Source: Palaeococcus pacificus DY20341
Lineage (GTDB): Archaea > Methanobacteriota_B > Thermococci > Thermococcales > Thermococcaceae
Length of the DNA stretch: 64,000 bases
Assembly (NCBI RefSeq): GCF_000725425.1
Contig: NZ_CP006019.1
Coordinates: 620,001 to 684,000 of the forward strand
Direction of reading: 5' to 3'
In this document: positions 36,159 through 45,346 of the stretch, piece by piece
Layout of the letters: each line of letters starts with the position of its first letter
Numbering within the stretch: the first letter of the stretch is position 1
Notes under the pieces: model-generated
Database searches by the model: none
What the model was told of the DNA's origin: nothing
What the model saw: only the letters and a program-made list of their open reading frames with translations
Position numbers and translations under genes: made by a program

Positions 36159-36947
36159 ATGACACTCGACCGCTTCATTAAGGTGAAATACTCGGAGGAT
36201 AAAGAAAGAATCGAGAAGCTTAAAGAAATTTTGAGTGAGCTCGGCTTAGAGTGTGCTCGGACTATAGAAGAAAAAGTTGACCTCCAGTTTTCCGCTTTGG
36301 AAAATCTTCACAAGAATTTAAACAATGATGAGCTTTTCATTAAACTCGTGCTTGCTAATGCTATCGTCTCCTACCAGCTTTCAGCAACCGGCGAAGAGTG
36401 GTGGTGGGAGTTCTCTCACTACTTCTCTACCAATGGAGATGTAAGGAGTATAAAAGAAGCTTATGCCGACTTTTTGCCCAATTCAAGGACGAACAGGCGC
36501 TTGGTTGGGGCCAAGATCAAGCGCTTAGAAAAGCTCGAGCCATTTCTTAAGGGAATGACTTTGGATAACCTTAGAGTATATTATGATAATATGCTCAAGC
36601 TGAGGGATGATTTGGCAAAAGCGTTAAACTCCAAGAGAGAGGCTAAAACAATAGTCTTTGCCGTTAAGATGTTCGGCTACGCTGCCAGGATAGCTTTTGA
36701 GGAGTTTAGGCCGTATCCAATGGAGATTGCCATTCCAGAGGACGTTAGAATAAATGCCTACACTAAACGCTTTACCAACGAGCCTCCAGCAAGCTTTTGG
36801 AGCAAAATAGCGGAGGAAGTTGGCATCCCTCCACTTCACATTGATTCAATAATCTGGCCTGTTTTGGGCCGCCATAATGAAATTAAGGAGCGCTTAAAGA
36901 GATACTGCGAAAAAGCGGAGCTTGTTTTTAAGCTTGCTGAGCTTTAG
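36159..36947 (+). CDS. Archaeal 8-oxoguanine DNA glycosylase/lyase (AGOG)
   Basis: 262 aa. GEEWWWEFSHYF, PNSRTNRRLVGAKIKR, the catalytic Lys region TIVFAVKMFGYAAR and the Asp in PEDVRINAYTKRF fit the AGOG family, which excises 8-oxoguanine and cuts the abasic site in a helix-hairpin-helix-like fold. GGTGAGCCT precedes the ATG. Coupled to the beta-RFAP synthase homologue although no functional link is evident. Confidence 0.92.
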   Translation: MTLDRFIKVKYSEDKERIEKLKEILSELGLECARTIEEKVDLQFSALENLHKNLNNDELFIKLVLANAIVSYQLSATGEEWWWEFSHYFSTNGDVRSIKEAYADFLPNSRTNRRLVGAKIKRLEKLEPFLKGMTLDNLRVYYDNMLKLRDDLAKALNSKREAKTIVFAVKMFGYAARIAFEEFRPYPMEIAIPEDVRINAYTKRFTNEPPASFWSKIAEEVGIPPLHIDSIIWPVLGRHNEIKERLKRYCEKAELVFKLAEL

Positions 36948-36982
36948 TTAAATTCCCATCTTGTCGAAATTTTTCCGTTAAC

Positions 36983-36990
36983 TTTTTATA
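36983..36990 (+). promoter_or_regulatory. TATA box of the his leader/operon
   Basis: TTTTTATA, predicting a start near 37013, just before or at the GGTGA ribosome-binding site (37012-37016) of the leader ORF. Confidence 0.5.
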
Positions 36991-37023
36991 CCCTACGAAA
37001 GACCTGAGAGCGGTGATAGCCAA

Positions 37024-37122
37024 ATGTTGTATAAGTTAAATAAAAAAGCAGAGAACCAAGGAACAACGTTGAGAACATTCTCTTCTATCGCCCTTAGGGT
37101 GAGCTACTGCCATCATCATTGA
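37024..37122 (+). CDS. Putative his operon leader peptide (32 aa)
   Basis: ATG 37024 is preceded by GGTGATAGCCAA, a well-spaced archaeal ribosome-binding site, and by a TATA box. The 32-codon frame begins MLYKLNKK and ends SYCHHH, three consecutive CAT codons directly before TGA (37120-37122). It is the first ORF of the histidine operon, 69 bases before hisZ. Terminal His codons in a short ORF upstream of his genes are the hallmark of bacterial ribosome-mediated attenuation; I know of no established archaeal counterpart. Basic and unlike any protein I recognise. The function is inferred from position and codons. Confidence 0.6.
   Translation: MLYKLNKKAENQGTTLRTFSSIALRVSYCHHH
37088..37102 (+). 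promoter_or_regulatory. Short hairpin inside the his leader ORF
   Basis: TCGCCC-TTA-GGGTGA can form six pairs (one G.U) and ends 8 bases before the first His codon at 37111. Possible pausing or folding element; weak on its own. Confidence 0.35.
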
Positions 37123-37191
37123 AGGCTTTTCTCCTAGAAATGTTCAAGTTAGTGGATGGTTTTTAATCAACAACTCATTGGAGGGGTTATT

Positions 37192-38091
37192 TTGAAGAAG
37201 GATTTATTTTCCGAGTCTGAGCGCTTATCTGAAATAAGCAAATACCTGAGGAGAACCTTTGAGCTTTGGGGCTACAAAGAGATTTTCCTGCCGAGTGTGG
37301 AAGAGTACAGTCCTAATTTAAGGAGAGGCCTTAAAATAGCCTACAACAACGAATTTTACCTAGTAAAGCCGGATATGACGTCGCAAATAGCTTTTAACAT
37401 GAAATCCCCGAAAGCCATGAAAATTTACTACATAAGCGAAGTCCTAAACGATATTCGGGGCAAGTGGCAGGCTGGGCTGGAGTTTATAGGTGGGAGCGAG
37501 GAATACATGGCTGTTGAGATTTTGAGCGTTGTGATAACGTCCCTCGAAGCTCTCAATATTCAGGACTTTTACATTGATGTAGGCAGCTTGGCTGTTTGGA
37601 GAAATGCATTGAGCGGAATGGAGAAATTTGAGAAAAGCATCTTCGAAGCATTAGCCAAGAGAAACTTTGGAATAATTGAATCTCTGCCAATAAGTGAAGA
37701 AAAGAAGGAAGAGCTCTGGCGTCTCTTTAACTTCAGGGGAAAGAAGAGCGGTGTGGAAAAGGTTGACAGGATAGTTGAAGCTTTAGGGGATGACAGAGTG
37801 TTCATTGATTTTGGCACAATAAGACCCCTTCCCTACTACGATGATGTAATCTTCGAGGTCTATTCTCCAAAGCTTGGAAAGCCAATCGGCGGTGGAGGAG
37901 GATACAAAATTGGTGGTTTAAGTGCCTTCGGCTTCGCCTTTAATTTGAAAGCTTTAGCTAAGCTCTACACAGGAAAGTTCGAAAAGAGTAGGAAAGTCCT
38001 CAAGGGGCTGGACTCCTACAGAGAAGCAAGGCGCCTTGTGAAGCTCGGCATTCCAGTGGAGGTGAGAGAGAATGAGGATAGTACTTCCTAA
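37192..38091 (+). CDS. hisZ: ATP phosphoribosyltransferase regulatory subunit HisZ
   Basis: 299-aa paralogue of histidyl-tRNA synthetase catalytic core lacking the anticodon domain. [22 protein letters not shown] and [12 protein letters not shown] recall class II motifs 1-2, and the C-terminal [18 protein letters not shown] is the motif-3 region. It is the obligatory partner of short-form HisG, found next door. The frame is open from 37156, but GGAGGGGTT (37180) selects TTG 37192. It overlaps hisG by 20 bases. Confidence 0.9.
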
Positions 38092-38689
38092 GGGGAGGCT
38101 GTTTAAGGATTCAGTGGAAATCTTAAGGAGAGCGGGGTTAGCCATTGAACCTCCTGAAAAGAGGGAGCTAATCAGCAGGGTTAATGGGTACGAGGTCATT
38201 TTGGCGAGGTCTTTTGATGTGCCCGTTTACGTTGAGCATGGGATAGATATAGGCATAGCAGGGAGCGATGTTGTTGAGGAGAGGGAGAGTGACGTGTTTG
38301 TACCTCTGGAACTCCCATTTGGAAACTGCCGCTTAAGCCTGGCTATGCCCAAAGAGAGCGTAGTTAGGCCGGAGGAGATGGAAGGTTATAGGGTTGCAAC
38401 GAAGTACGTCAACATAGCTAGGAAGTTCTTTGAGCGCAGGAACGTTGATGTGGAGGTCATTAAGCTCTCGGGTTCGATTGAGGTCGCCCCTAAAGTGGGC
38501 ATAGCCGATGCTATAGTTGACATAGTCGAGACAGGGAATACGCTAAGGGCAAACGGTTTGGTTGAAGTCGAGAAGATAATGGACGTTTCCGCCCTGCTTT
38601 TGGTCAATAGGGTCTCTCAAAAGGTTAAGTTTGAGGAGATAAACCAGCTCGTTTTAAAGCTTAAGGAGGTTGGTAGGAATGACATTTGA
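38072..38689 (+). CDS. hisG: ATP phosphoribosyltransferase, short form
   Basis: 205 aa, the short HisG_S type that lacks the C-terminal ACT-like domain and needs His[12 protein letters not shown] opens the fold; [10 protein letters not shown] and the PRPP loop [16 protein letters not shown] are intact. Condenses ATP with PRPP, the first step of histidine synthesis. GGAGGTGAGAGAGA precedes the ATG inside hisZ. Confidence 0.95.
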
Positions 38690-39812
38690 TTTGGAGAAAT
38701 ATGTTGGAGAAGTCTTGAAGGATATTAGAGAAAGAGGCATTGAGGCCGTTAGAGAGTACTCAAGGAAGTTTGACGGCTACGATGGAGAGTTCTTGGTGAG
38801 AGAGGAGGAGTTTGAAGAAGCTGAGAGGCTGATTCCAGAGGAAGATAAACAAGTAATTGCGAGGACTATCGAGCGTGTTAGGAAATACCACGAGAAGCAG
38901 CTTGAAAATGATAAGCTCTACATAAAGAACGCATCGCTTTACGGCATAATCTACAAGCCAATTAGGAGGATAGGAATCTACGTCCCGGGAGGAAAGCCTC
39001 TCCCATCATCGCTCATAATGGCTGGAGTTCCGGCTAAGATAGCTGGCGTTAGGGAGATAGTCGTTACCATACCGCCGAAAGAGGGGAAAGTTAACCCATA
39101 CGTCCTCTACGTTGCAAAGCTCCTCGGCATTAAAGAGGTCTACAAGCTCGGTGGAATCCAAGCGATTGGAGCAATGGCTTACGGCATTGGAATGAAGAAA
39201 GTGGACAAAATCTTTGGACCAGGTAACAAGTTCGTGAATGAGGCGAAGAGGCAAGTCTTTGGTGCTGTTGGGATTGACAGCTTAGCTGGTCCTTCGGAGA
39301 TAGCGGTAATAGCCGATGAAAGTGCAAATAAAGATTATGTTCTTGCAGACTTGCTCTCCCAACTAGAGCACGGGAAAGACTCAAAGGCTTGGCTCCTCAC
39401 GACTTCAAAAGAGTTAGCAGAATATTGTAACAAGGAAGGCGTTGAGGTTGTCTTGTGCGAAAGCTTGGAGGAGTGTGCGGAAAAGGTCAATGAGATTGCT
39501 CCAGAGCACTTGGAGATACTCACAAAAGAGCCTCTGAAGTTGGTGGACTTAATCGAAAATGCTGGGGCGATTTATTTGGGAGAATACACACCAGTCCCAG
39601 CAGCGGATTACTTCCTTGGCGTAAACCACGTCCTTCCAACGGGTGGAGCGGCCAAGTTTGGCTCGGTCTTAACGGTTATGGACTTTATGAAGCGGATAAG
39701 CTTAGCCTACGTGAGCAGGGAGGAGTTTTTGCAAGAGAGGTATTTAGGGATTCGCTTAGCGGAGATCGAGGGCATGGAACAACACAAGAGGAGCATGGAG
39801 ATAAGGAGGTAG
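38679..39812 (+). CDS. hisD: Histidinol dehydrogenase
   Basis: 377 aa. [51 protein letters not shown] and [16 protein letters not shown] are the zinc-dependent HisD motifs. Oxidises histidinol to histidine in two NAD+ steps. A TTG at 38670 is in frame, but GGAGGTTGGTAGGA fits ATG 38679. Slightly shorter than bacterial HisD (about 430 aa). Confidence 0.95.
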
Positions 39813-39817
39813 CATTG

Positions 39818-40348
39818 ATGAGGCGCAAAACAAGAGAAACGGACATAACTGTCGAGCTCGGCAGTGAGGGAGGAATAAAGACTGGCGATAAAGTCTTTGA
39901 CCACCTCCTCACTGCTTTATTCTTTTACATGCGTGAGGAGGTTAGTGTGAGCGCTGAGTGGGACTTAAGGCACCACCTATGGGAGGATTTGGGTATAGTC
40001 CTTGGAGAGGAGCTTAGGGAGAAAATTAAGGGCAGGAAAATAGCGCGCTTTGGAAATGCAATAATTCCAATGGACGATGCGTTAGTCCTGGTCGCCGTTG
40101 ACATTTCAAGACCTTACCTAAACCTCGAGCTCGCCCCGGATGAGGGTGAAGAGGGATTTGAGCTCACTTTAGTTAGGGAGTTCCTCTGGGCTTTAGCGAG
40201 GACTCTCAATGCTACAATTCACGTGAAGCAGCTGAGCGGAGTTAATGCCCACCACGTCATCGAGGCGGCATTTAAAGGACTCGGCGTCGCTTTAAGAAAG
40301 GCTTTGAGAGAGAGCGAGCGTTTGGAGAGCACCAAGGGGGTGCTGTAA
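39818..40348 (+). CDS. hisB: Imidazoleglycerol-phosphate dehydratase
   Basis: 176 aa, monofunctional. VFDHLLTALFFY, LRHHLWEDLGIVLGEEL and NAHHVIEAAFKGLG supply metal-binding His/Glu residues of the two half-domains. Compared with bacterial enzymes (DHHTxED) the first motif reads RHHLWED and the protein is about 20 residues shorter, which as I recall is normal for Thermococcales. AAGGAGGT precedes ATG 39818; a TTG at 39815 is also possible. Confidence 0.93.
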   Translation: MRRKTRETDITVELGSEGGIKTGDKVFDHLLTALFFYMREEVSVSAEWDLRHHLWEDLGIVLGEELREKIKGRKIARFGNAIIPMDDALVLVAVDISRPYLNLELAPDEGEEGFELTLVREFLWALARTLNATIHVKQLSGVNAHHVIEAAFKGLGVALRKALRESERLESTKGVL

Positions 40349-40936
40349 ATGATAGCAATAGTGGATTTAGGGATTGGGAACCTGGCAAATGTTAGAAAAG
40401 CCTTGGGTGGAGTAATCACGAGTGACCCCTATGAGATTGAGAGGGCTGATAAGATTGTGCTCCCGGGGGTAGGGAACTTTGGAGCAGTGATGAAAAGGCT
40501 TGAGCCTCTAAAAGGGACGATCTTAGATGCGATCAATGAAGGGAAGCCATTCCTTGGTATATGCTTAGGGATGCAGCTTTTGTTTGAGTGGAGCGAAGAA
40601 AGCGAAGGGAAGGGCTTGGAAGTCTTTAAGGGCAATGTGGTGAAGTTTAAAGGTGTTAGAGTTCCCCACATAGGCTGGAATCAAGTTTTTCCTGCTAAAG
40701 AGTGCCCGCTCTTTGAAGGAATCAAGAACGGGAGCTACTTCTACTTTGTGCACTCCTACTACGTAAATCCCCAAGACAAAGAAGTGATTGCAGCTATAAC
40801 GGACTATGAGTCAAAGGGGAATAAAGTAGTCTTTCCTTCAGCAGTTTGCAAAGATAACGTCTTTGGAGTTCAATTTCACCCAGAAAAGTCGAGCAAAAAT
40901 GGGTTGAAGCTTTTAGAAAACTTCAGGAGGCTGTGA
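40349..40936 (+). CDS. hisH: Imidazole glycerol phosphate synthase, glutaminase subunit
   Basis: 195-aa class I glutamine amidotransferase. Nucleophile Cys in FLGICLGMQLLF and the His-Glu pair in VQFHPEKSS complete the triad; PGVGNFGAVM is the oxyanion segment. Delivers ammonia to HisF. Starts directly after the hisB stop codon. Confidence 0.95.
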   Translation: MIAIVDLGIGNLANVRKALGGVITSDPYEIERADKIVLPGVGNFGAVMKRLEPLKGTILDAINEGKPFLGICLGMQLLFEWSEESEGKGLEVFKGNVVKFKGVRVPHIGWNQVFPAKECPLFEGIKNGSYFYFVHSYYVNPQDKEVIAAITDYESKGNKVVFPSAVCKDNVFGVQFHPEKSSKNGLKLLENFRRL

Positions 40937-40937
40937 G

Positions 40938-41621
40938 ATGAGGGTTTACCCTGCAATAGATTTAATGAGCGGGAAAGCTGTGAGGCTCTATAAAGGAAGA
41001 AAGGATAAAGTGAAAGTTTATGGAGATCCCGTAGAGATAGCTAAGGATTTTGCCAAGCTTGTGGACAAAATCCACATAGTGGACTTGGATGGAGCCTTTG
41101 AGGGAAAGCCAAAGAATCTCGACGTCGTGAGGAGGATAATAGAGGAGACGGGGCTGAATGTTCAAGTAGGTGGGGGCTTCAGGGACTATGAGAGCATAGC
41201 AAAGGCCTACTCAACTGGCGTTGAGAACGTCATAATAGGCACGAAAGCCTTTGACTTGGAGTTTTTAGAAAAGGTAACGCAGGATTTTGAAGAAATAACT
41301 GTAAGCTTAGATGCCAGAGGCGGAAGGATAGCTGTAAAAGGCTGGGAGGAGGAGAGCTCTATAACCGTTGAAGAGGCTTACGAGATGCTCAAAAAGTACG
41401 TTAATAGGTTCATTTACACGGCAATAGAAAAGGACGGCACATTGACGGGAATTGAAAAGATAGAGCGCTTCTGGGGCAGAGAGGAGTTCATCTATGCCGG
41501 TGGGGTTTCAAGCGTTGAAGATATCCTAAAGCTCAAAGAAATTGGGTTTTCTGGAGCAATAGTTGGAAAAGCTCTCTATGAGGAGAAAATAAGCTTAGAA
41601 GAGATTTTGGAGGTATTGTGA
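40938..41621 (+). CDS. hisA: ProFAR isomerase
   Basis: 227-aa (beta/alpha)8 barrel. [17 protein letters not shown] carries the catalytic Asp, [15 protein letters not shown] and VQVGGGFRD the N-terminal phosphate site, and FIYAGGVSS the C-terminal one. Performs the Amadori isomerisation of ProFAR. Stop codon overlaps the hisF start (TGATG). Confidence 0.95.
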
Positions 41622-42376
41622 TGCTCGCTAAAAGGATTATCGCTGCGTTGGACATAAAAGAGGGGAGAGTTGTAAAGGGGATAAAGTTTCAGAATATCAG
41701 AGATGCCGGAGATCCAATAGAGCTGGCAAAACGCTATGAGGAGGAGGGAATAGATGAGATAGTTTTCCTCGACATTACAGCATCATACGAAAAGAGGCAA
41801 ATTCTCCTCGATCTGGTAAAGAGAATAGCTGAGGAGATTTACGTTCCCTTCACGGTTGGTGGGGGGATTAAGAGCGTTGAGGAGATTAGAGAAATAATAA
41901 AGAGCGGTGCCGATAAGGTTTTCCTCAACACGGCGGCTGTTGACAATCCAACGCTTATAAGTGAAGTAGCAAAAGTTGTTGGTTCAGCAAATTTAGTAAT
42001 AGCGATAGATGCTAAATGGAATGGGAAGTTTTGGGAGGTTTATACTCACGGAGGAAGAAAAGCGAGAGGGATAGATGCAGTAGAGTGGGCTAAAGAGGTC
42101 GAATGTTTGGGAGCTGGTGAGATTTTGCTCACTTCTATGGACACGGATGGAACGCAGGAGGGCTTTGACATACCCCTAACTAAAGCAATAGTCGAGGCTG
42201 TTGACATTCCCGTTATTGCCTCTGGAGGTGCTGGAAGTCCAGAACACTTCTATGATGCATTTGAAATTGGTGCAAGCGCGGCTTTAGCTGCATCAATCTT
42301 TCACTATGGGAAGTACACCGTTAGAGAGCTTAAGGAGTATTTAGCGAGGAGGGGTGTGAATGTCAGACTTGAATGA
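41621..42376 (+). CDS. hisF: Imidazole glycerol phosphate synthase, cyclase subunit
   Basis: 251-aa barrel homologous to His[14 protein letters not shown] has the first catalytic Asp; [31 protein letters not shown] (second catalytic Asp) and VIASGGAGS follow. With HisH makes IGP and AICAR. GTG at 41618 is in frame; ATG 41621 gives the usual [11 protein letters not shown]. Confidence 0.96.
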
Positions 42377-42992
42377 GCTTATAAAACAGGTCAACTGGGA
42401 GAAAAGCGAAATAGTTCCAGTTATCGTGCAGAACGTTGATGGAGAAGTTTTGACTTTGGCTTATATGAATGAGGAGGCGCTGAGAAAAACTTTAGAGACA
42501 GGTTATGCACATTATTATTCCAGGAGTCAAAAGAGAATTAGGATGAAGGGTGAGGTTAGCGGGAACGTTCAAAAAGTTAAGGAAATAAAGATAGACTGCG
42601 ACAGTGACGCTTTGCTTTTAATAGTTGAGCAGGTTGGCGTAGCTTGCCACACCGGCAATAGGAGCTGCTTTTACAGGAAATTGGGAGAACCAGAGAGGGA
42701 AGTTGGCGGGATTGACTATTCGTTGACAGTTTTGAGGGAGCTTGAGGAGGTCATAAAGCAGCGCAAAGAAAATCCAGAAGAAGGCTCTTATACTTCAAAG
42801 CTTTTCAAAGAGGGGAAAGAGAAGATATACAAGAAATTTGGGGAAGAAGCAGTGGAAGTCTTGGTCGCTGAAGAAAGAAAGAGAATAATTTACGAAACGG
42901 CTGATTTACTCTATCACCTCTTAGTTTTGCTCGCTTATAATGGGATAAGCTTAGGTGAAGTTATGAAGGAGCTTAGGGGGAGGAGAAGGTGA
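42360..42992 (+). CDS. hisIE: Bifunctional PR-AMP cyclohydrolase / PR-ATP pyrophosphatase
   Basis: 210 aa, fusion. Residues about 1-110 are His[40 protein letters not shown] and [11 protein letters not shown] hold the zinc Cys and His ligands. Residues about 118-205 are HisE, a MazG-like helical domain: [25 protein letters not shown] and [22 protein letters not shown] precedes the ATG, 17 bases inside hisF. Confidence 0.95.
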
Positions 42993-43996
42993 AGGTCAGT
43001 GAGATAGTTAAGGACTTTAAGCCGTATAAGGTTTTAGAGGGAAACTACAGGATTTGGCTCGATAAGAACGAGAACCCCTTTGATATTCCGACAGAGATTA
43101 AGGAAGAGATCTTCGAAGAGCTTAAAAATATCTCTTTCAACCGCTATCCACACATCACCGCTGATCCTTTAAGAGAGAGGATAGCCGAGTTTTTGGGGTT
43201 TGAAAAGGAAAACGTAATCGTTGGAAACGGGAGCGACGAACTGATAAGTCTACTTTTGAAGCTCTTTGAAGGTGACCACATAGTCATAAGCTCCCCGACC
43301 TTTGGGATGTACAGCTTCTTTGCGAAGTTTGAGGGGATTGATTTAGTTGATGTGCCATTGGATGGGCGCTTTAAGCTCCAGAACGTCGAGGACTACGCAG
43401 AAAATGCCAGGGCTATCTTTATCTGCTCTCCAAACAATCCCACGGGCAACACTCAAGAGAGGGAAAAGATAATAAGCGTCCTTGAAACCGGCGCTCCCGT
43501 GGTTTTAGATGAAGCGTACATAGAGTTTGCAGAGAGCAGCAACGTTGATTTGGTCAGTGAGTATGATAATTTAATAGTTCTGAGGACATTCTCAAAGGCT
43601 TTTGGGCTTGCCGGGATTAGGGTTGGCTATGCAGTCGCAAGTAAAGAGATAATAGACTACCTTAACAGGATTAAGCCCCCCTTTGCGCTGAACTCTCTTT
43701 CAATGAGGATAGCAGAGCTTATGCTTGACCACTATGATTTAGTTAAACAAAACATCAATTACATAATTAAAGAGCGCGAGCGCATCTATAAAGAGTTCAA
43801 AGACTACGCATATCCAAGCGAGGCAAACTTTCTGCTTATGCGCTTGAATGCCTATGAATTCCTTCTTGAAAGGGGCATTGTAGTGAGAAATTTCGGCGGA
43901 AGGCTGGACGGCCACATAAGAGTTACCATCGGCAAGAAGGAGGAAAACGACGAGTTGATTAAAGCATTGAAGGAGTTTTTGGAGAAAGAGTACTGA
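42989..43996 (+). CDS. hisC: Histidinol-phosphate aminotransferase
   Basis: 335-aa fold-type I PLP enzyme. [16 protein letters not shown] binds the cofactor phosphate, CSPNNPTGN the carboxylate side, DEAYIEF the pyridine N, and [16 protein letters not shown] contains the Schiff-base Lys. GTG start in a GTGA overlap with hisIE, after a GGGGGAGGAG site. Last classical his gene of the operon. Confidence 0.95.
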
Positions 43997-44032: not shown

Positions 44033-44767
44033 ATGAAGGAGCTAAAATGGCTAATCTTTGATGTTGACGGCGTTTTAATTGACGTGAGCGAGAGCTACGA
44101 CTTGGCGACAAAGTTCACGGTGGAATACTTCCTAAAGGAGCTCGGCAGAGAAAAAGCTATTGACGTGGAAATTATAAGGAAGCTGAGGAGAAAAGGAGCA
44201 TTTGGAGATGATTTTAAAGTCAGTGAGGCTTTAATATTATTTGCTCTAAACGGTGATGTAGAAGGGTTCGTTGAGCGTTTTCCAGAAGGAGAAGGAATAA
44301 AATGGGTCAGGGAAAGGTTTGGGACTATTGTTGAGCCGGAAGAAATTGAAAGAATTTTCAACACCTTTTACCTGGGCGAACACTATAAAGAGAGAGCTTT
44401 TGAGTTTGACGGCCTCTGGAAGAAGGAGAAACCGATAGTCAGGAAGGAGCTCCTTGAAAAAGCCGGAGAAAGGTTTAAGCTCGGCGTTGTGACGGGAAGG
44501 AATAAACTTGAGCTTAAATTAGCCGAGGAACTCATTGGCTTCCACTTTGAGAACGCCGTTACGAGAGAGTTTTATGTTAAACCGGATCCAAAAGCCCTCT
44601 GGCATCTCACAAAAGGTGAGGAGGGAATTTATATTGGGGATACAGTAAACGATGGCCTTCTGGTGGAGAATTACAAAAAGGAATATGGAAAGGATTTTGG
44701 GTTTATGATGATCGGCAGGGATGTAAGGGATGTAAATGAGGCGATGGAGAGGCTGTTGAAGAGTTAG
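44033..44767 (+). CDS. HAD-superfamily phosphatase, likely histidinol phosphatase
   Basis: 244 aa. WLIFDVDGVLIDVSESY is HAD motif I (DxD), GVVTGRNKLEL motif II, the Lys before PDPKAL motif III, and GIYIGDTVNDGLL motif IV. No hisN-type gene is otherwise present in the operon. A HAD/DDDD histidinol phosphatase was described for Thermococcus onnurineus, and this gene follows hisC by 36 bases, so it probably completes the pathway. GGGGGGTTAACTA precedes the ATG; a weak TATA-like GCTATAATTT lies between. Confidence 0.8.
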   Translation: MKELKWLIFDVDGVLIDVSESYDLATKFTVEYFLKELGREKAIDVEIIRKLRRKGAFGDDFKVSEALILFALNGDVEGFVERFPEGEGIKWVRERFGTIVEPEEIERIFNTFYLGEHYKERAFEFDGLWKKEKPIVRKELLEKAGERFKLGVVTGRNKLELKLAEELIGFHFENAVTREFYVKPDPKALWHLTKGEEGIYIGDTVNDGLLVENYKKEYGKDFGFMMIGRDVRDVNEAMERLLKS

Positions 44768-45346
44768 AGGTGGAGAGGTTTAATAAGAGCGACCAGCTCG
44801 TTGATGTTTTTTGCGTAGATATCTGCATTTTTTACCTCTCTACCCACCGCAATGCTCAGATCTGCTTTATCGAACATTCCGGCGTCATTATGTCCATCTC
44901 CAATTGCCAGCACAAAACTTCCTGAAAACCTGTCAACAATCTCGCTTTTATCTTTGAAGCAAAGGGAGATGCCTTCAAATTTACCATTCTTAAAAAGTGC
45001 TTTGTTTGCAATAAAAATATCTGCCATCTCTTTAAACTCCGCCAAAACTTTCTCAAAGCATCCGCTCACTAGGACTATAAAAAAAGCCCTTTTCCTTTAA
45101 AATCCGTATAAGTTCCTCAGCTTTCGGATTCACTTTAGCTTTAGGTTTTAGGAACGTCTCAGCATCTACCCCTTTAATAAGCTCCACCCTTTTCAGCAGG
45201 CTGTCAATCCATTCAACCTCTCCCAAAATGCCTTTTTCTAAGAGCTCTTCGATTTTTGGGTTCCCAACTAGCCTTGAAATCTCCCTCCAGAATTCAAAAG
45301 GAGTTAATGTCCCTTCGATATCAATAACGGCTATTTTTCTCCTCAT
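44764..45346 (-). pseudogene. HAD-family phosphatase (phosphoserine-phosphatase-like), frameshifted
   Basis: Two reading frames form one HAD protein. The first (45346 to 45053) starts MRRKIAVIDIEGTLTPFEFW and runs out of register after EKGFF; the second carries VSGCFEKVLAEF and the motif IV GDGHNDAGMFDKADLSIAVG. The break lies at A7 on the plus strand (45079-45085): with six A the frame reads GFFIVLVSGCFEK, an exact HAD motif II. So a single-base insertion in a homopolymer, a sequencing error, or slippage-dependent expression. Motif I has DIEGT instead of DxDGT. Confidence 0.85.

Follow-up and report, generated by a model that had tools for sequence, protein, structure and literature searches.

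Does an archaeal operon for histidine biosynthesis sense histidine through a ribosome that reads a short ORF placed ahead of the operon? The question is raised by a stretch of 64,000 nucleotides of the Palaeococcus pacificus DY20341 genome (referred to here as the window), in which a small ORF ending in consecutive His codons precedes a complete his operon. Transcription attenuation is not known in archaea (PMC8448881), and Jaeger et al. (2014; PMC4247193) wrote that direct experimental evidence for the action of attenuators or riboswitches in Archaea was lacking. We found no earlier report of an archaeal his leader in the open-access literature, subscription papers lying outside this coverage. 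Judging from the sequences compared below, we propose, with a probability of roughly 75%, that the ORF encodes a leader peptide through which the Thermococcaceae sense charged His-tRNA and regulate their his operon.

The his locus of the window

The his operon lies entirely within the window in the order hisZ-G-D-B-H-A-F-IE-C, and the parts of the leader region that precede it are collected in Table 1. An earlier note on this DNA had described an ORF with an ATG start, a TATA box, a Shine-Dalgarno (SD) sequence and a Cys-His-His-His-stop ending ahead of hisZ, all of which can be read directly in the sequence. It had also named this the sole ORF between the promoter and the operon, and we likewise detected no second ORF equipped with an SD sequence in the promoter-to-hisZ interval of the window. 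Since the 16S rRNA of this genome ends in GATCACCTCC, GGTGA counts as a proper SD sequence. This 3' end occurs twice in the genome with identical flanks (G000:C1:764646, plus strand, and G000:C1:1527368, minus strand), which suggests two rRNA copies. The TTG at position 37192, behind GGAGGGG, is most likely the start codon of hisZ.

Table 1. Coordinates of the leader region and his operon in the window
Feature	Position (strand)	Description or basis
Archaeal promoter, BRE/TATA GTTAACTTTTTATA	36977..36990 (+)	Sequence; motif recurs across 46 leaders
TATA box TTTATA	36985-36990 (+)	Sequence
Leader-ORF SD sequence GGTGAT	37012..37017 (+)	Sequence; complementary to 16S 3' end GATCACCTCC
Leader ORF	37024..37122 (+)	ATG start, 32 codons, MLYKLNKKAENQGTTLRTFSSIALRVSYCHHH then stop; last codons TGC CAT CAT CAT, stop TGA
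Internal SD-like element GGTGA	37098..37102 (+)	Positions -13 to -9 from first His codon
Control codons CAT CAT CAT (His)	37111..37119 (+)	
Stop TGA and pyrimidine-rich post-stop motif TTTTCTCC	37120..37134 (+)	
hisZ SD sequence GGAGGGG	37180..37186 (+)	Sequence
hisZ, first gene of the operon, TTG start	37192..38091 (+)	Best NCBIfam match TIGR00443 hisZ, E=1e-35, below cut-off
hisG	38072-38689 (+)	Adjoins hisZ; NCBIfam match above cut-off
hisG, hisD, hisB, hisH, hisA, hisF, hisIE, hisC	38072..43996 (+)	

Several minor features of the locus were also observed. Histidine is scarce in the products of the operon itself, with no His codon among the approximately 299 of hisZ and 26 among the 2277 codons of the nine his genes (37192-43996), i.e., 1.1% relative to 1.5% in the ORFs of the window. 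Directly 3' of hisC lies a HAD-family gene (44033-44767; Pfam Hydrolase match, TIGR01548 match below cut-off), whose sequence and position could fit the otherwise missing histidinol-phosphate phosphatase. On the minus strand (44764-45346), a HAD-type hydrolase appears to be broken into two ORFs that overlap and lie in different frames (N-terminal part, 45053-45346; C-terminal part, 44764-45069), which suggests a frameshift or decay.

Conservation of the leader ORF in the Thermococcaceae

Of 94 Thermococcaceae genomes, 47 carry hisZ and 46 carry hisG, with discrepancies only at contig ends. A His-ending leader ORF was found in all 47 readable hisZ leaders. In 46 of these, the ORF begins with ATG, spans 12 to 34 codons (32 being the commonest length), contains 2 to 4 consecutive His codons, and stops 0 to 2 codons further on, at least two consecutive His codons falling within its last five codons in every case. 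In one leader (L021), TGC replaces TGA after the His run, and the frame runs on to CHHHCRLFYN and ends six codons later.

An SD core of the GG.G type or GAGG precedes the ORF in 43 of the 46 leaders. The frame is open throughout all 46, whereas 122 stops occur in frame +1 and 52 in frame +2. Within clades, pN/pS is 0.65 in the N-terminal part that forms the body of the ORF and 0.42 in the last eight codons, so the body drifts almost freely. Both the length of the His run (2, 3, or 4) and the position of the stop change by whole codons across leaders, as seen in the C-terminal variants YCHHH, YRHH, CHHHLF, CHHRLF, and SLHHPF, each followed directly by the stop. An alignment of Thermococcales hisZ leaders had been suggested as a check on the earlier proposal, and its outcome agrees with what was anticipated there: the ATG, the SD sequence, the frame and the terminal His codons are kept, while the remaining codons drift.

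An automatic test for an ATG ORF of 10 to 45 codons that is preceded by an SD sequence and ends in consecutive His codons was passed by 43 of the 46 leaders, relative to 0.023 expected from dinucleotide shuffles; because the start codons and criteria were fixed after inspection of the leaders and because the leaders share ancestry, this comparison is descriptive and does not amount to a probability. The earlier note had considered three His codons in a row to be unlikely by chance, and this judgment holds across the family but not within a single genome. The string CAYCAYCAYTRA occurs at eight sites in the P. pacificus genome, the other seven in unrelated frames that are not leaders, such that the His run is weak evidence within one genome and gains its significance from being conserved.

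Across the 46 leaders, a median of 36 nt separates the end of the BRE/TATA motif (GATAAnnTTATAAA) from the ATG of the leader ORF, and no better-scoring promoter motif was found in the spacer between the leader ORF and hisZ in any leader. Given that the motif lies 5' of the ORF, transcription is predicted to start between a few and ~20 nt 5' of the ATG, which agrees with the median 5'UTR length of 16 nt in T. kodakarensis (PMC4247193). A transcription start 3' of position 37024, which the earlier note had named as evidence against a leader peptide, is not what the promoter motifs predict, since they put the start 5' of the ORF in all leaders.

The conserved leader end is also largely restricted to his loci. 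Of 28 exact matches to CATCATTGACTNTTCT in the 94 genomes, 27 are his leaders; the remaining match was considered as a second copy elsewhere, but it lies antisense inside a gene and was put down to chance. At the HisZ loci examined in other lineages (Methanomethylicota, Jordarchaeum, and one Clostridium), no His leader was seen, and no HisZ match was obtained in the same phylum outside the Thermococcaceae.

Control codons and possible outputs

The control codons are CAT at 112 of 116 positions in the 46 leaders. CAT is the less used His codon, accounting for 31.5% of the His codons in the window's ORFs and for 4 of 46 in hand-picked genes around the operon. It should be read through wobble by a GUG anticodon, and we infer that this would lengthen the wait of the ribosome, although the conservation of CAT might also stem from a constraint at the nucleotide level.

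An SD-like element lies 9 to 13 nt before the first His codon and reads GGTGA in 32 of the 46 leaders and GAGG (GAGGG) in four, its position being conserved although its letters differ. Its pairing with the anti-SD sequence averages -6.5 kcal/mol, relative to -2.0 kcal/mol for codon-shuffled ORF bodies, in an interval that was picked after the motif was noticed. Since the spacing between this element and the His codons equals the normal spacing between an SD sequence and a start codon, the pairing would be unstrained when the first His codon occupies the P site. On the other side of the His codons, TTCT occurs 3, 6, or 9 nt after the last of them in 46 of 46 leaders, including those in which it falls past the stop, and a post-stop motif, CTSTTCTG, is found in most relatives irrespective of the hisZ SD sequence. 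In bacterial toeprints, the ribosome footprint reaches about 13 nt past the first base of the A site. Assuming a bacterial footprint, a ribosome awaiting the last His codon would just cover TTCT in most leaders.

How might such a leader act on hisZ? The conservation of the frame suggests that the ORF is translated. The his mRNA would start ~10 to 20 nt 5' of the ORF, and the ribosome would therefore translate the leader first. When His-tRNA is scarce, the ribosome would wait on the CAT codons, and pairing of the SD-like element with 16S rRNA while the first His codon occupies the P site would prolong this pause. The waiting ribosome would then cover the post-stop motif and block an inhibitory state of the spacer, allowing hisZ to be translated. 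When His-tRNA is plentiful, the ribosome would terminate and depart, and hisZ would initiate poorly; the untranslated RNA may additionally leave the polymerase within reach of the termination factor FttA. The output is the weakest link in this scheme, and our proposal that it consists of control over translational initiation at hisZ, with transcription polarity as a secondary effect, is a tentative one with somewhat less than even odds. Control of hisZ initiation by ribosome dwell seems the most likely form, with FttA-dependent polarity as an addition or alternative.

No hairpin is conserved across the leaders (mean fold z scores of 0.07 for the leader end plus spacer, 0.16 for the spacer, and -0.16 for the His region), and clade-wise RNAalifold analyses of the leaders yielded only clade-specific hairpins and no common structure. 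An intrinsic terminator was not found between the leader ORF and hisZ, where the fold z score is that of the spacer, nor was a consistent T run found after the ORF among the leaders inspected or an antiterminator structure involving the control codons, where the mean z score is that of the His region. The spacers of several leaders are only 24 to 36 nt long, too short to accommodate both a classical terminator and an SD sequence. An Rfam scan of positions 36900 to 37300 that included His_leader and T-box gave no match beyond a chance-level snoRNA (E=0.3). On average, the hisZ SD sequence was as accessible with its own spacers as with shuffled ones, so no overall sequestration by the spacer was seen. 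With no hairpin and with shuffle-like accessibility of the hisZ SD sequence, the inhibitory state is invisible in the sequence.

In a duplex scan, the two tracts with the highest average complementarity to the hisZ SD sequence were pyrimidine tracts, one ~32 nt 5' of the point where the His run ends and the other just past that point, at the post-stop motif; this complementarity is strong in some clades and absent in others. In the clade of L046, L049, and L052, the His codons can pair with UGAUG just past the stop (CAUCA...UGAUG hairpin). The outer pairs of this hairpin differ in both strands when L046 (AGUU/AACU) is compared with L052 (AGCC/GGCU), as judged by eye from three sequences.

A possible alternative, to which we give perhaps a third of our confidence, keeps the same sensor but makes the output transcriptional. 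FttA (aCPSF1) would bind the post-stop RNA once the leader ribosome has terminated and cause early termination, and a ribosome held on the His codons would block FttA. FttA prefers U-rich RNA, and it has been suggested that a coupled ribosome keeps it away (PMC11616081, PMC8116511). The U-containing CTSTTCTG is kept just past the stop whatever the hisZ SD sequence, and a factor-dependent device needs no hairpin, which is consistent with the absent fold signal. However, the short spacers of some clades leave little free RNA, and CTSTTCTG is only moderately U-rich. Rather unlikely, in our estimation, is a hairpin-free, ribosome-mediated and amino-acid-specific archaeal attenuator that would combine both outputs, in which the SD-like sequence would park the ribosome on slow His codons beside the post-stop motif and its dwell alone would decide both hisZ translation and FttA termination.

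Other readings of the conserved block

A regulator could instead bind the block, either as an RNA element or as a DNA operator, in which case the reading frame would be incidental. In favor of this, the nucleotides of the block are themselves well conserved (GGTGAGCTACTGCCATCATCATTGACTSTTCT), CAT hardly varies, and the motif continues past the stop. This reading is nevertheless improbable, given that the number of His codons and the stop change codon-wise, that synonymous changes occur within the block, and that an ATG-led frame stays open in every one of the 46 leaders (43 with an SD core) despite its drifting N-terminal part. In addition, the SD-like element is kept by position rather than by letters, and there is neither a fold signal nor an Rfam match. 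We consider it very improbable that the ORF encodes a small functional protein, such as a metal-binding peptide with a Cys-His-His-His tail; CHHH could bind metal and the ORF is conserved, but the peptide body is not conserved, its length ranges from 12 to 34 codons, and Tyr, Arg, Leu, or Phe can stand in place of the Cys. A chance ORF whose conservation reflects only recent common ancestry deserves almost no credence, even with eight sites for an HHH-stop string in one genome, since the Thermococcaceae HisZ proteins are only 55 to 72% identical to that of the window, the N-terminal parts and spacers have diverged while the frame and His codons stay, and the shuffle comparison contradicts it.

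Relation to known regulatory systems

The reading that we favor, in which a leader peptide gene responds to charged His-tRNA, resembles the sensor half of bacterial his attenuation. Like the his leader of Escherichia coli and Salmonella (hisL; Rfam His_leader), the Thermococcaceae leader is a short ORF with consecutive His codons near its end, directly behind the his promoter, and, as in his/trp-type attenuators, the run of cognate codons is predicted to be cotranscribed ahead of the cognate operon. In contrast to hisL, it has 2 to 4 His codons instead of 7, an archaeal promoter and ribosome, an internal SD-like element, and no Rfam match. Because a terminator and an antiterminator were sought and not found, and because Rfam gave no match, we do not file it as a member of the bacterial attenuators. 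The attenuation-like leader of the earlier note thus survives in part: conservation supports a leader peptide, whereas the terminator/antiterminator pair of a bacterial-type attenuator was not found. The leader has the look of a histidine sensor, and sensors of this kind are not yet known outside bacteria.

In translational attenuation of the ermC type, a ribosome stalled on a short upstream ORF (uORF) likewise frees the ribosome-binding site of the next gene without a terminator, as may also happen here; the signal, however, would be uncharged tRNA rather than a drug, and no conserved hairpin that sequesters the ribosome-binding site was found. Small ORFs in 5'UTRs with a proposed influence on the downstream gene were also detected by Ribo-seq in Methanosarcina mazei, although the accessible part of that report describes no relation to control codons or operons (PMC11456600).

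In a genetically tractable family, a conserved leader with control codons would offer an endogenous, condition-dependent test of whether translation controls transcription in archaea, and it would also let competition between the ribosome and FttA be addressed. It suggests, too, that tRNA sensing by leader peptides is independent of bacterial-type terminators.

Within the same family, TK0271 controls the aromatic amino acid operons of Thermococcus (PMC6737238), but this regulator is a transcription factor that works at the promoter. In 15 Thermococcaceae, the 5'UTR of the trp operon is short, a TGTCCAAA motif lies close to the TATA box, and no Trp uORF precedes the operon. A TGTCCAAA-like motif directly adjoins the TATA box in nearly all 15 of these trp promoters (L064-L078, trpC loci) and is possibly an operator.
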